Assembly (NCBI RefSeq): GCF_039962115.1
Contig: NZ_JAMPKJ010000022.1
Location: 1-64,000, forward strand
Direction of reading: 5' to 3'
Origin: Funiculus sociatus GB2-C1
Lineage (GTDB): Bacteria > Cyanobacteriota > Cyanobacteriia > Cyanobacteriales > FACHB-T130
DNA: 64,000 nt
Shown here: piece after piece, positions 20,378-28,196 of the stretch
Layout of the letters: each line of letters begins with the position of its first letter
How positions within the stretch are numbered: position 1 is the first letter of the stretch
Made by a program: the position numbers and the translations under genes
Notes under the pieces: generated by a model
Database searches by the model: none
What the model was told of the DNA's origin: nothing
Seen by the model: only the letters and a program-made list of their open reading frames with translations

Positions 20378-23029
20378 GTGGCAAAGTTCATCTCAAGGCT
20401 GAAGGATATATCAGGCAAGTTCAATGCAGGAGTCTCAACTGAACCAGTCGATACGCCTAAGATTGATAAACAACCAGATAACCCAGATAAGGTAGATAAA
20501 CAGACATTGCGGCGGCGGCGGGAAATCAAGCGAAGTCTCTTGCGGATGAAGCGCTTCTCTGGCCAGCAGTTGGAAGTTATCAAAAAGCCTTTCACGGGAG
20601 AAAATCCCCTTCATCACAAAAAGCGATTTTGGATCGGCTTGGGTGTGGGAGGAGGAGCGATCGCGCTGGGTGTTGCTTGGTCATCTTTTGAAAGCAGCTT
20701 ACCGGATACTGGCGATGTATTAACTTTAATGCGCCCAGAGACTTTGACCATTAAAGCCTCTAATGGCAAAATACTTCAGCAAATTGGCCCCACTACCCGC
20801 GAAGCCCTGAAAATTGACAAAATTCCTAAAAAGCTGATACAAGCCTTCATTGCCATAGAAGACAGACGCTTTTACCAACACCAAGGGGTAGATTATCAGG
20901 GCGTAGGGAGAGCAATAGTTTCTAACCTGGTAGCCAGAGATGTCGTTGAAGGCGCTAGCACTATTACCCAACAACTAGCGAGGATGGTTTTCCTCGATCA
21001 AGAGCGTAGCGTCTGGCGCAAGCTCAAAGAAGTTCGTACTGCACAAAAAATTGAGAACGGAAACACCAAAGATCAAATTCTGGAACGTTATCTGAATTTG
21101 GTTTATTTGGGAGAAGGTGCTTATGGAGTAGCAGATGCGGCTTGGGTTTACTTCACCAAGCCAGTGTATGAGCTAACGTTGGCGGAAATGGCAACGCTAG
21201 CCGCAATACCACCAGCACCCAATGAATACTCGCCCCTGAAGAACCCGCAAGTTATCAAACAGCGGCGAAATTTGGTATTAAAACGGATGCAGGAGGCTGA
21301 CTTCATTACAGCAGAAGAAGCCGACAAAGCGATCGCTTCCCCATTAATTACAAAAGCAAGCCCTCCCAAACGCCTCGAAAGATTCGCCCCCTACTTCACC
21401 GAATACATCCAACAGGAACTGCCCAAATACGTTTCCAAACAAGCGCGGGAAGTCGGCGGTTTAACTGTGGAAACCTCCCTGCACCCAGAGTGGCAGGAAG
21501 CAGCGGAAGAAGCTGTCACAAAAACCATAGAAAACACGGGAAGAGGTCAAAACTTTGAACAAGCTGCTCTAGTTGCCATCGATCCGCGTACCGGAGAAAT
21601 TAAGGCGATGGTCGGGGGAAAAGACTTTTTCAAACAACAATTTAATCGCGTCACCCAGGCACAGCGCCAACCTGGTTCTACATTTAAAGCATTTGTTTAT
21701 GCAACAGCAATGGCAGCTGGATTTACTCCCTATCGCGGCTACCTGGACTCACCTTACAAAGTAGACGGCTATACCCCCAAAAATTACAGCGAAACCCACC
21801 GGGGCTGGATCTCCATGAGAGATGCCCTGATCGGCTCAATAAATGTAGTCGCTGTGAAAGTTTTGGTAGATGTCGGGTGGGAACCAACGATCCAACTGGC
21901 ACGCAAAATGGGAATTGAATCAGAACTCAAACCCACCTACTCCACAGCTTTAGGTGCCTCCGAAGTTAACCTGTTGGAACTAACTAGCGCTTATGGCACT
22001 TTTGCCACCAACGGAACACATACAAAAGCCTTTGGCATCCGCCGTGTTCTCGACCGACGCGGCAACGTAATTTACAACGCCAAATCTAAATCAGAGCGCG
22101 TCTTACAAGAAGACACATCTGCCATTATGACTTGGCTGCTGCGGGGTGTTGTGAACGAGGGTACAGGTCAAGCTGCCTCTTTAGGCGATCGCCCCGTCGC
22201 TGGCAAAACCGGAACCTCTGACGAAGCCCGCGACCTGTGGTTTATTGGTTACATTCCCCAAATGGTTGCTGGTGTTTGGCTGGGCAATGACAACAACAAA
22301 CCTACTTGGGGTGCCAGCAGCACAGCCGCCTACACCTGGCACGAGTTCATGGAGAAAGTGGTAGAAGGGATGCCCATCGAGAAGTTTCCCCCTCGACCTA
22401 CCCAATTAGAAGGGCGCAAACCCCAAATCGACGTCAAGCCAATCAAGCCTCGAAGCAGCTATTCTGGGCCTATAAACACAGATAAAAGCGACAACGACGA
22501 GCAAACTCAAACCCCCCGACGGAGAAGATCCCGCCGTACATACAGCGAAGACAACTCCAGCAACGAAACTCCCCGGCGTAGCCGGAGCCGCAGTAACACC
22601 TACCAAACCAACAGTGTACAAAGTGGCGAGGAGCGCCCTCGCCGCAGGCGGCGACGCAGCCAAGAAGTCCAGACTCAAGAAGTCCCCACACCCACCTATC
22701 GCCGTCGCCGTCGTAGTTCACAAAACACAGATTCTCAGAGCCAGCAAACTCAAGAAACGCCTACGCGCAGCAATCGCCGCCGTCGTCGTAGTTCACAAAA
22801 CACACAATCGCAGGAGTCGGCACCAGTGGGGCGTAGTAGTTATCGCCGCAGGTCATCAGAATCGACTTCCTCAACTTCCTCGACTTCCTCGACTTCTCGC
22901 CGCCGACGGAGGAGCAGACAAACAGTACAAAGCTCTGAGCCACCAGCACCACGCGCACCCAGAAGGGAGTACAACTCCGCTGCGCCACCAGCGCCTCCAG
23001 CTGCTAGGAAGGATAGTTCTTCACAGTAG
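20378..23029 (+). CDS. Class A penicillin-binding protein with long Arg/Ser tail
   Basis: 883 aa starting at GTG with AAGGAG upstream. One membrane anchor (about residues 84-101) follows a basic cytoplasmic N-terminus. The GT51 transglycosylase domain has Glu161 in AIEDRRFYQHQGVD and the ASTITQQLARM motif. The transpeptidase domain has Ser434-x-x-Lys (QPGSTFKAF), S487-I-N and K611-T-G. The protein polymerises and crosslinks peptidoglycan in the periplasm. From about residue 690 to the end there is an unusual tail of RRRRR blocks separated by Ser/Gln/Thr/Pro-rich spacers, absent from typical PBPs. The tail would lie in the periplasm and is strongly cationic. Confidence 0.93.
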   Translation: MAKFISRLKDISGKFNAGVSTEPVDTPKIDKQPDNPDKVDKQTLRRRREIKRSLLRMKRFSGQQLEVIKKPFTGENPLHHKKRFWIGLGVGGGAIALGVAWSSFESSLPDTGDVLTLMRPETLTIKASNGKILQQIGPTTREALKIDKIPKKLIQAFIAIEDRRFYQHQGVDYQGVGRAIVSNLVARDVVEGASTITQQLARMVFLDQERSVWRKLKEVRTAQKIENGNTKDQILERYLNLVYLGEGAYGVADAAWVYFTKPVYELTLAEMATLAAIPPAPNEYSPLKNPQVIKQRRNLVLKRMQEADFITAEEADKAIASPLITKASPPKRLERFAPYFTEYIQQELPKYVSKQAREVGGLTVETSLHPEWQEAAEEAVTKTIENTGRGQNFEQAALVAIDPRTGEIKAMVGGKDFFKQQFNRVTQAQRQPGSTFKAFVYATAMAAGFTPYRGYLDSPYKVDGYTPKNYSETHRGWISMRDALIGSINVVAVKVLVDVGWEPTIQLARKMGIESELKPTYSTALGASEVNLLELTSAYGTFATNGTHTKAFGIRRVLDRRGNVIYNAKSKSERVLQEDTSAIMTWLLRGVVNEGTGQAASLGDRPVAGKTGTSDEARDLWFIGYIPQMVAGVWLGNDNNKPTWGASSTAAYTWHEFMEKVVEGMPIEKFPPRPTQLEGRKPQIDVKPIKPRSSYSGPINTDKSDNDEQTQTPRRRRSRRTYSEDNSSNETPRRSRSRSNTYQTNSVQSGEERPRRRRRRSQEVQTQEVPTPTYRRRRRSSQNTDSQSQQTQETPTRSNRRRRRSSQNTQSQESAPVGRSSYRRRSSESTSSTSSTSSTSRRRRRSRQTVQSSEPPAPRAPRREYNSAAPPAPPAARKDSSSQ

Positions 23030-24670: not shown

Positions 24671-27037
24671 CTACATTGATTCTCTTTTTCGTTGCTCAAT
24701 CTCTGCTATGGGTAACAACAAGGTATCTTCTATCTTTCGTCGCACCTCGCGACTTACATAACAATCGCTATTCAGGCACTCCACCAGCAACTTATTGGCA
24801 TCGTAATACTGCTTAAATAATTCCTGTTGGTGTTTGCTGAACTGCCAATTGTGACCCATATTATACTTAATCATCACGGCTCTGAATTGCTCAGCCCAAG
24901 CTATACCGTTAGCTTTCCACCATTGCTTATTTTGTGCCCAGTCTTTCGATTTAAGTAATTTAGGTAATTGATCTCTAAGTTGTTGCAACGAGTTCTTTAA
25001 TTCTGGTTCGCGGCTGCGGGCGCGGTCAAGGACGCGGTCGAGGGCGCGGTCGAGGACGTGGTCGAGGTCGCGCTCGAAGGCGGGGTCGAGGGCAAGGACG
25101 CGGTCGCGGGCGTGGGCGAGGTCGCGGGCGAGGGCGTGGGCGAGGGCGAGGTCGAGGGCGCGGGTGAGGTCGAGGTCGTGGTCGTGGTCGAGGGCGTGGG
25201 CGAGGGCGAGGTCGAGGGCGCGGGTGAGGTCGAGGTCGTGGTCGCAGGTGAGGGCGGGGTCGAGGGCAGAGTAAAAAGCGCGGACTGCTGCTGACTTATA
25301 GTTATATGAAATTTGGACTGACAGAGATTTCTTACTTACCCACATTAGGAACTGCTGCAACTTCTCATCACCAGCTACAATTTCATCAACTTGATGTTTC
25401 ATTAACTGTAGTAAACGATCTGCTTTTGGCGACATCCCAACTGCTAAAAAGAAAACTTCTCGCCAGTGTTCTTCGGTAATGTGATTAACCAAACGTTGCA
25501 ACGCCTCCTCTGATGACTGTTTTACAACAACAATTTCTCTAGCAGTGAAATACTCGTGAAATGTTAGATGGGAAAACGAGTAAATCCCTTTAGCGCGTTC
25601 CACTACTAGACCATGATGATGCTCAATTGAGCGCAAAACTTCCTCACTGTCCAGTTGTAATGCTTCCTCATCAGTATTAGCACTAGGTAAATTACGGATG
25701 TAATCTGTGATGTATTGCTCGGCTGTTTTTTGCTTAAAGAAATAGTCACCTTGCTCAAACGTAGTCAGGGCGATTTTACTGAGTAAATTTTCCTTACCCT
25801 GAATTGATAGCTTTTTGTAAACTTGAGCGCGTTGAATCCCGCGCTTGGCATCCCATTTTTTCAGTAGCGCATCCAGTCCTTCTTTGTATAGTTCAGAACG
25901 ATTCGCCGGGAAATCCCCTGACTCTTCAAACGCCAAACATAGGAGCGTCAGCAGTAGCGGACTTGTGGCGAGTTCGTTGATCCGTTCATTGTCTGTGAGG
26001 CATTCGATAAAAGTTTCTGGTTTAACAGCTTTACCCTTAAACCAGTTGGTTGCAAAGGTGGCAATTTGTTCACTATCAAAATCAGCAACTTCTACCTCTG
26101 TAAATTTCTCGAAGGTATATTCTCTCGCTGCAATTCGGCAGGTCATCACAAAATGATTGTCACGAAACTGGTCAGAAAACTCACGAATCTCTTTTAAGAC
26201 ACGCTTATTATCGTCCTCTCTAACTTCATCCAAACCATCGAGTAAAATCAATCCTCTGCCGCATTCGATTACATCTTGTAGAGACACGATAACCCTTGCC
26301 TCTCCAACCCCGCAGCCCGCGAATTGCTGATTGATGTATTCCAATAAACTTGGTTTATTAGCGGTTTCAGCAAAGTCTTTGAGGGTGACAAAAATCGGCA
26401 CGCGATCAGTCTGAAACTTATCCTGATTGCACTGAACTGCTAAATACTTCAAAAATGTGGTTTTACCAGCCCCAGGCTTCCCCAAAATCATCAACTTGGG
26501 ATATTTATTGACCGCATCCAGTCCGGGGATTCGTTTTTCAGTAATTCTGCCCAGTCCAAAGCGATCAAACTTCTCAAAGTTGCACTCTTGCAGTAATTCA
26601 GAAATATCTTTGCGCGTGCGTCCAGTAATTTTCTCTAGAATGTTGACGTTGGTGTAGATATCATTCAACCCAATGGGGTGAGTCATATCTAGCACCCGCA
26701 TTGTGCCGCAGTCTTCTTGAATGCTGGGTTTTATCTTGCCCCGTACCTCTTGCACTAGAGCATCAATATCAATGCTGTTTTTCTGATTCTGGTCAGATGG
26801 AACAGGTACAGCGTCTTTAGGTAAATCAGCAATCTCCTGCCAATCCAAACGTAACTTTTCACAAAGACCAACAAATATCTCGCTTTTAACTGCTTTACCT
26901 GTAAAGAATTTTGTGATCGGTTGACGACTGATACAAACTACACCGATTAAATCAGTCTGTTTCCATCTGTTGGCGATTAGAGCTTGTTTTGCCAACTGGA
27001 TACCTTTTGGAGACGCCTGGAGCGATCGCGCTGTCAT
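24671..27037 (-). CDS. NACHT-domain STAND NTPase with HTH N-terminus and repeat array
   Basis: 788 aa. Residues 8-75 form a helix-turn-helix-like module (QTDLIGVVCISRQPITKFFTGK). The NACHT NTPase has Walker A GKPGAGKTT (186-194) and Walker B RGLILLDGLDEV (261-272), followed by sensor-like TCRIAAREY and the C-terminal SHLTFHEYFTARE helix. Residues about 592-672 are a low-complexity array of Leu-Asp/Arg-Asp/His-Asp units. The end (CLNSDCYVSREVRRKIEDTL) resembles the C-terminal helical domain of cyanobacterial conflict NACHTs. Bacterial NACHT proteins include antiphage NLR-like systems; a defence role here is inferred. A small membrane protein and a toxin-antitoxin pair lie next to it. Confidence 0.9.
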   Translation of the reverse strand: MTARSLQASPKGIQLAKQALIANRWKQTDLIGVVCISRQPITKFFTGKAVKSEIFVGLCEKLRLDWQEIADLPKDAVPVPSDQNQKNSIDIDALVQEVRGKIKPSIQEDCGTMRVLDMTHPIGLNDIYTNVNILEKITGRTRKDISELLQECNFEKFDRFGLGRITEKRIPGLDAVNKYPKLMILGKPGAGKTTFLKYLAVQCNQDKFQTDRVPIFVTLKDFAETANKPSLLEYINQQFAGCGVGEARVIVSLQDVIECGRGLILLDGLDEVREDDNKRVLKEIREFSDQFRDNHFVMTCRIAAREYTFEKFTEVEVADFDSEQIATFATNWFKGKAVKPETFIECLTDNERINELATSPLLLTLLCLAFEESGDFPANRSELYKEGLDALLKKWDAKRGIQRAQVYKKLSIQGKENLLSKIALTTFEQGDYFFKQKTAEQYITDYIRNLPSANTDEEALQLDSEEVLRSIEHHHGLVVERAKGIYSFSHLTFHEYFTAREIVVVKQSSEEALQRLVNHITEEHWREVFFLAVGMSPKADRLLQLMKHQVDEIVAGDEKLQQFLMWVSKKSLSVQISYNYKSAAVRAFYSALDPALTCDHDLDLTRALDLALAHALDHDHDLDLTRALDLALAHALARDLAHARDRVLALDPAFERDLDHVLDRALDRVLDRARSREPELKNSLQQLRDQLPKLLKSKDWAQNKQWWKANGIAWAEQFRAVMIKYNMGHNWQFSKHQQELFKQYYDANKLLVECLNSDCYVSREVRRKIEDTLLLPIAEIEQRKRESM
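25020..25260. repeat. GC-rich repeat array inside the NACHT gene
   Basis: A nested array built on GGTCGA/GGGCGA hexamers. A 60-base unit occurs twice in tandem (25131-25190 and 25191-25250, the first 54 bases identical), giving a 20-residue protein repeat. It is far more GC-rich than the flanking gene. The unit length keeps the frame, so the array can gain or lose units without disrupting the protein. Confidence 0.9.
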
Positions 27038-27189: not shown

Positions 27190-27393
27190 ATGAACATCGT
27201 TCTGATGCTTCTGCTGTGGGTAGCCGAAAAATTCGCGGAAAAAGCTTTGGAGAAGTTATTAGAGAAGATATTAAGCGATCGCAACTTCAAGCGTCTAACC
27301 ACTGGCTTTAAACTCCAGATTTTAGTGTTGTATCTGGACTGGCTACTGCAAAAGACTTCATTTCAGGAGCCACCCGATCGGGATGGCAAATAG
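27190..27393 (+). CDS. Small hydrophobic-helical protein divergent from the NACHT gene
   Basis: 67 aa from the ATG at 27190 (MNIVLMLLLWVAEKFAEKALE); the frame opens at 27124 but the extra residues are less plausible. One membrane helix is followed by amphipathic Lys/Glu/Leu helix (KALEKLLEKILSDRNFKRL) and a second hydrophobic stretch. I do not recognise the family. It starts 152 bases from the NACHT start on the opposite strand. Confidence 0.5.
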   Translation: MNIVLMLLLWVAEKFAEKALEKLLEKILSDRNFKRLTTGFKLQILVLYLDWLLQKTSFQEPPDRDGK

Positions 27394-27577
27394 ACGAAGA
27401 CCGCTAAACCACCCGGAAGTCAAGTTCCGGGCTAATAGCTTAAGTCCATTAAAATGGACTCAAACCTTTGAACAGTCCTCAGTGCTAGATTTCAGTTTGC
27501 AAAATAACGATGTGGTGCGATCGCGCAACGTAGCCTTAAAAGAGCGATCGCATTCCCCTAACCCACAAGTAAATCCG

Positions 27578-27862
27578 ATGACAAAAACAGAAATATTGGC
27601 AGCACTCAAGCAGATGACAACCGAAGAGCGCTTAGAAATCATCGAAGCTGCTTCGCGGATGATGCGGGAAGAAATAGAAGACAAGGGGCGGATAATAGCT
27701 GAGAAGAAAAAGCGACTCAGAGCAGCTGCTGAGGCTGCAATCCCAGATTATCTGCCTGGAGGTGCGCTACACGATCTATGGTCGCCTGACAGTGAACCTT
27801 ATTATGACTCTGAGGAAGAATTACTTGAAGCTCTTAACGCTGAGGTAAAAACTAATGCGTAG
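27578..27862 (+). CDS. Antitoxin of a PemK/MazF-type pair
   Basis: 94 aa from the ATG at 27578 (MTKTEILAALKQMTTEERLEI); the frame extends upstream to 27383 without a plausible start. It is highly charged and helical, with an acidic C-terminus (PYYDSEEELLEALNAEV) suited to binding a basic toxin. It overlaps the toxin gene by 8 bases, the usual antitoxin-first order. There is no clear DNA-binding motif, so autoregulation is uncertain. The antitoxin role rests mainly on context. Confidence 0.7.
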   Translation: MTKTEILAALKQMTTEERLEIIEAASRMMREEIEDKGRIIAEKKKRLRAAAEAAIPDYLPGGALHDLWSPDSEPYYDSEEELLEALNAEVKTNA

Positions 27863-28196
27863 AGGCGAAGTCTGGCTAGTCAGTTTCAATCCTATAATTG
27901 GCGATGAAATCGGGAAAATTCGTCCAGCAGTGATAGTGAGTAAAGATTCTGTTGGATTTTTGCTACTCAAAGTTATTGTTCCAATTAGCAAATGGCAGGA
28001 GCGATATGCAGATCGAGACTGGATGGTGCGGCTGGAACCTAATGCAGAAAATGGTTTGAGTAAACTTTCAGTAGCAGATACTTTTCAAGTGCGATCATTG
28101 TCACAACTTAGGCTAATTCGACAATTGGGCAATCTTTCTGACGAAGCCATCCAAGAAATTACCGCAGCCTTAGCCATTGTCCTCAGCATATTATGA
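27855..28196 (+). CDS. Type II toxin, PemK/MazF family
   Basis: 113 aa. The N-terminus MRRGEVWLVSFNPIIGDEIGKIRPAVIVS is the family hallmark, followed by VPISKWQER and VADTFQVRSLSQLRLI. MazF/PemK toxins are sequence-specific mRNA endoribonucleases that stop translation when freed from the antitoxin. The start overlaps the antitoxin end, which couples translation. It may stabilise the accessory block that holds the NACHT gene (inference). Confidence 0.9.
   Translation: MRRGEVWLVSFNPIIGDEIGKIRPAVIVSKDSVGFLLLKVIVPISKWQERYADRDWMVRLEPNAENGLSKLSVADTFQVRSLSQLRLIRQLGNLSDEAIQEITAALAIVLSIL

Follow-up and report, generated by a model that had tools for sequence, protein, structure and literature searches.

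How bacterial NLR-like proteins acquire new specificities is an open question, and one gene in the window (the whole 64,000-nucleotide stretch of DNA analysed here) raises it directly, as it encodes a NACHT protein with a tandem array of two-residue units close to its C-terminus. The initial annotation described an HTH-NACHT protein with a dipeptide array before a C-terminal helical domain, and this architecture is confirmed by the translation of an intact open reading frame of 788 aa (24671..27037, minus strand, as are all parts of the gene given below), Pfam matches, an AlphaFold2 (AF2) model, and Foldseek searches. The interval 24671-27037, which had been assigned to the feature, is that of the whole gene, while the array itself lies at about 24989-25270.

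The N-terminal helix-turn-helix (residues about 10-70; 26828..27010) is recognized by a four-helix pattern in the AF2 model, in which the HTH helices span residues 10-61, and by a match of the homologue L057 to HTH_26 that just reaches the cut-off. It is followed by the NACHT NTPase domain (residues 183-334; 26036..26491), matched with an E-value of 3e-17 and 63.2 bits against a Pfam cut-off of 26.7, whose Walker A and B motifs (GKPGAGKT and LILLDGLDEV) form invariant columns among homologues. A winged-helix/helical region of NLR type (residues 335-588; 25274..26035), assigned from AF2 and Foldseek, leads into the hypervariable region with the dipeptide array (residues 590-683; 24989..25270; hexanucleotide core about 25010-25265). 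The protein ends in NCH2 ("NACHT C-terminal Helical domain 2", PF22727; residues 680-776; 24710..25000; E 3e-35, 120.5 bits versus a cut-off of 27), a domain found at six loci of the window's own genome and matched in none of 14 control genomes. Given the domain, its motifs and the predicted fold, the gene product is an NLR-like STAND NTPase.

Mean pLDDT of the AF2 model is 86.5, and the best Foldseek matches are the animal receptors NLRP3, NLRC4 and NOD2 (prob 1.00, E 4e-11 to 1e-10), with low TM-scores of about 0.3 across the whole query. The predicted NACHT and helical fold is shared with these receptors, and the array stands where the LRR follows in NLRs; the window protein differs from them in that it has no LRR and carries a C-terminal NCH2. 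The model thus supports the proposal that the array follows an NLR-type helical domain, at the predicted place of the sensing part in such receptors. Structure prediction of the array, which had been put forward as a check, does draw helical hairpins, but at a pLDDT of only 60-88, and mostly 33-70 for the helices of the S/Y-rich L057 array. Judging from its family, the gene most likely acts as an anti-phage sensor or switch. The bNACHT proteins of clade 14 are described as carrying a short C-terminal domain (SNaCT) but lacking an evident effector, and phage defence is reported for two (PMC12169576). Compared by description only, they resemble the window protein in their central NACHT, short C-terminal domain and lack of a recognisable effector, and differ from it in that their description, as far as it is accessible, does not include a hexamer array.

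On the coding strand the array is built from a 6-nt unit, (G/T/A)NC CNC, which encodes alternating (A/D/S/N/Y)(L/R/H) residues. TRF reports periods of 60 nt (4.0 copies, 80% matches), 18 nt (12.6 copies) and 12 nt (21 copies), and identity at lag 6 is 0.67 versus 0.48 after codon shuffling (z 8.2), with 0.35 at lags 3 and 9. Near-identical adjoining 60-base units had been reported by the initial annotation; repeat comparison finds one such pair, an exact 56-nt repeat at 60-nt spacing (25129..25184 and 25189..25244) where a 60-nt shift gives 58/60 identity, but elsewhere in the array only 19-51 of 60 positions agree and the basic unit is the hexamer. The array was rightly called frame-keeping, yet this carries no weight by itself, since any unit of 6 nt, or two codons, stays in frame. 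The description of its DNA as GC-rich is borne out by values of 73-76%, versus 38-48% in the remainder of the gene. The third codon position is C in 50/50 codons of the best 150-bp stretch (18% in the gene body), and codon choice follows: Asp is GAC in 18/18 cases versus 11/41 in the body, and Leu is CTC in 19/22 versus 7/73. Entropies at codon positions 1, 2 and 3 of the same stretch are 0.32, 1.34 and 0.00 bits, compared with 0, 0 and 1.26 bits in a (PQ)n control array from another protein of the same order (one of only three control arrays of this type). The array thus varies at position 2 and holds C at position 3, the reverse of what (PQ)n arrays display. Variable array positions seldom carry Gly or Pro codons (G in 6/507 odd and C in 27/587 even positions).

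Selection on another frame was considered, as the +2 frame reads CCN CGN / CCN CTN, i.e. (Pro-Arg/Leu)n in which every variable site would be synonymous, and the window array indeed gives PRPR. Its probability is negligible: 13 of 15 arrays, including the allele of the same-species genome G064, contain 1-8 stops in this frame, whereas no array interrupts the NACHT frame, and an overlapping (PR)n frame was rejected on these grounds.

Templated diversification, by a diversity-generating retroelement (DGR) or from silent cassettes, is known for NACHT-associated genes; DGR targets adjoin NACHT proteins in other bacteria (PMC10907252), and the NNC codons of the array recall DGR variable regions. 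In multicellular bacteria, antigen sensors of that kind likewise add a diversified module to a NACHT system, a C-type lectin fold mutated by means of a reverse transcriptase and a template repeat (PMC10907252), but the window array differs in having no template and in turning over by repeat changes in place. A six-unit hexamer pattern searched with zero mismatches has no second match in the 6.47-Mb window genome; hence the array is not a product of chance, and a template repeat or cassette donor was rejected. Position 1 is also nearly constant in the window array, and tandem duplications account for its units, leaving templated diversification with a very slight probability.

A loose hexamer pattern run across the order returned mostly Pro/Gly/Gln-rich repeats and C-runs, and a strict pattern was chosen for that reason. 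This pattern skips most arrays, the window's own included, and so tests specificity rather than frequency; it matched in 3 of 386 cyanobacterial genomes, in all three at the same place of NACHT-NCH2 proteins. The array belongs to none of the repeat classes compared: no Pfam repeat domain was matched in it, identity at lag 5 in the arrays is 0.013 versus 0.159 expected, unlike the five-residue period of pentapeptide repeats, and its period of two residues is not that of a WD, ANK or TPR unit. No description of such an array was found in openly accessible papers. Elsewhere in the window, a penicillin-binding protein (20378-23029) ends in a long tail rich in Arg and Ser, and has a short 9-nt array at 22862-22896.

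A direct view of how the array evolves is offered by G064, a genome classed as the same species as that of the window and syntenic at this locus. Nucleotide identity is 94-99% in the flanks (most windows), 83-92% in the NACHT body, 51-67% at the HTH end, and 77% in the array where it can be aligned. Between shared anchors the array is 112 aa long in G064 and 94 aa in the window genome, with different super-repeats and residues, so the expectation that array length changes rapidly among close strains is borne out in the one same-species pair; G000/G064 was the only near-identical strain pair with young arrays found. The array gives dN 0.258 and dS 0.131, a dN/dS of about 2 that rests on a repeat alignment of uncertain homology, with C kept at third positions whatever the cause, versus 0.17-0.42 in the gene body. 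This agrees with the earlier suggestion that the array may be fast-evolving. As an internal control for hypervariability, two paralogues that lack a young array keep 92% and 99% protein identity between both genomes, variable region included. The copies of Tolypothrix PCC 7712 and 7601 are identical to each other and array-free.

Not all of the divergence arises within the array. Values of dS are 0.28-0.42 in the gene body and about 2 (saturated) in the HTH, compared with 0.07-0.09 in the SbcC, penicillin-binding protein and 23679-24332 genes, and this excess over flanking genes indicates that an allele either old or imported plays a part. Since the two strains differ across the whole gene, part of the divergence is explained by allele replacement. 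The segment 26791-27488, which runs from the HTH-coding end through the intergenic DNA into the beginning of the next ORF, is nearly unalignable to G064, with DNA on its far side 92-100% identical; from the alignment, it looks like an allele swap. Adjoining and divergent from the NACHT gene is a toxin gene of PemK/MazF type, preceded at the antitoxin position by an ORF (27383-28196); this ORF had no Pfam match, and the pair has a raised dS of 0.22-0.25.

Homologues are widespread in Cyanobacteria, plasmids included. A quick tree was built from 96 NACHT bodies, on which change counts do not separate gain from loss, and an array was termed DNA-young where third-position C exceeded that of the body by more than 0.25. 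Young arrays are present in 21 of the 96 homologues. The tree divides into two halves of 48 rows each, and all 21 fall in the same one; their distribution requires at least 9 gains or losses, of which starred branches force 4. They range in length from 62 to 150 aa, vary in dipeptide phase relative to the flanking anchors, and differ entirely in composition (A/D-L/R in the window, S/D/Y-L/R in L057, S/N/D-L/R in L118). In the other half no young array was found, and the length of the region is near-constant within subclades (65-69 and 79-80). While arrays in draft genomes may be mis-assembled, complete sequences underlie those on plasmids of Nostoc N6, Nostoc C057 and Allocoleopsis PCC 7113. 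The array on Nostoc N6 plasmid pNPM4 is rich in Arg, Phe and Asp (RFRDRD...) and contains a duplicated SLSVVINH block; that on plasmid pMIC7113.05 of Allocoleopsis franciscana PCC 7113 proceeds in four-residue steps (LTSA/LDSA). The PCC 7113 plasmid member adjoins a type I restriction subunit gene, and a RelE/ParE toxin, an integrase and a transposase are located near the C057 plasmid member; such restriction, toxin and mobile-gene neighbours fit a defence role. Broken family copies with in-frame stops (G071:C33:246255-248332 and G002:C77:54708-56369) suggest gene turnover. In other cyanobacteria, four short ORFs consisting almost entirely of tandem repeat (L243, L239, L235 and L232; VLHHLLYS, RVAQ, NRVF etc.) are probably non-coding minisatellites.

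The family data bear on what the array does. One possibility is that the length of the array determines how far NCH2 can reach from the NLR core, and with it an activation threshold rather than specificity. The array does join two conserved helical parts and is highly variable in length, but residues at codon position 2 vary as much as length does, and the half of the family with near-constant lengths speaks against a tuning function, so we regard this mechanical or oligomerisation tuning as improbable. A stronger competitor, though still unlikely, is that the array is a tolerated microsatellite, i.e. a surface spacer accepting hexamer expansions, in which turnover is real, residues are nonspecific and variation is nearly neutral. 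The tolerance of such different lengths and compositions (R-F-D among them), the shifting phase, the low AF2 confidence in the L057 array and the existence of homologues without a young array are all compatible with a spacer. Against it stand the confinement of the array to one site, once in the window genome, with all strict matches in this NACHT-NCH2 family; the concentration of variation at nonsynonymous positions; the scarcity of Gly and Pro at variable positions; and a like array in a second, different NACHT-linked protein, described below.

Homologues without a DNA repeat retain a trace of its codon register. In their variable regions, residue identity is 0.47-0.60 of expectation at odd lags and 1.4-1.5 times expectation at even lags, while control segments of the same proteins have no parity effect. 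Ordinary alpha-helical periodicity was rejected as the source, as lags 3 and 7 are depleted and lags 4, 8 and 12 enriched even in these homologues; AF2 nevertheless draws helices. Across 37 dereplicated array-free regions, residues fall at the Leu parity in ratios of 126:29 for Arg, 86:29 for Pro, 51:23 for His and 142:44 for Phe, and Lys (35:46) does not follow. Leu, Arg, Pro and His have CNN codons in common and little chemistry, and hydrophobic/polar alternation was dismissed as the sole cause of parity because Arg, Pro and His follow Leu and Lys does not. Leu at that parity is encoded by CTN in 64% of cases versus 49% in the body, a difference whose p-value is inflated by the relatedness of the rows, and the DNA signature fades from strong through middle to weak arrays. 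These patterns suggest that much of the variable domain descends from decayed hexamer arrays.

Taken together, we consider it probable, if only just, that the array is a slippage-driven diversification module that varies recognition in a probable anti-phage sensor; its fast evolution is demonstrated by the comparisons above, and recognition is inferred. The region between the NLR-type helical domain and NCH2 would be made in place by hexanucleotide expansion and reshuffling, a turnover that the sequence comparisons support, presumably through slippage or unequal recombination within the array with no template elsewhere, and the two-codon unit would allow length and composition to change without loss of frame. 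Expansion from a seed would homogenise the DNA, leaving third positions as C, while amino-acid changes at position 2 would be kept by selection or be present in the seed already. Arrays may thus arise, turn over, fade at the DNA level and then arise afresh. In STAND proteins, ligand binding triggers oligomerisation and signalling. By analogy with them, ligand binding here would lead to NACHT-driven oligomerisation and to signalling via the HTH end. The array would most likely serve to vary the surface by which the receptor recognises a phage or a cell signal. Counted against recognition are the dN/dS from a repeat alignment, allele replacement and the low AF2 confidence in the array, and the dipeptide phase, which shifts against the flanks, would fit a tolerant spacer no less than a binding surface.

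The closest parallel to a recognition module of this kind is provided by fungal NLRs, in which highly similar repeats coincide with repeat-number polymorphism and diversifying selection (PMC4986451). In such fungal NLRs (the Podospora het-d/het-e/nwd family; WD, ANK or TPR units), a NACHT-type receptor likewise carries near-identical tandem units at the sensor position, with polymorphic repeat number and diversifying change at defined unit positions (PMC4986451); the window gene has both high-identity tandem repeats (the exact 56-nt repeat) and repeat-number polymorphism (112 versus 94 aa). It differs in its two-residue (6-nt) unit, in the absence of a WD, ANK or TPR fold, and in its cyanobacterial host, allorecognition being known for the fungal side only.

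A further protein touches on how general such a mechanism may be. In another cyanobacterial genome (G092, contig 182; L209, 2927-4162), a protein overlapping the end of a different NACHT gene (TM-NACHT) contains a long (D/Y/V/N)(R/L) hexamer array. It has a weak FGE-sulfatase match (E 0.007, below the cut-off), and in its relatives the variable region is not repetitive and a WEGIR(I/L)VRE motif is conserved at the C-terminus. With this second NACHT-linked protein, the device is not confined to one family. It is conceivable, though we would not call it probable, that two-codon repeat slippage is a general template-free device for new sensor modules in cyanobacterial NLR-like proteins, with the whole variable domain descended from arrays, as the codon register suggests, and with adoption by a second NACHT-linked protein of FGE type.

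If true, a sensor-position module regrown by repeat slippage, with neither reverse transcriptase nor cassettes, would give bacteria an equivalent of the hypervariable repeats seen in fungal NLRs. The codon-register fossil would be an example of a protein domain born from a microsatellite and then worn to ordinary-looking sequence. An array that differs between two strains of one species suggests a simple way by which a bacterial immune sensor, as this protein would be, may be varied.
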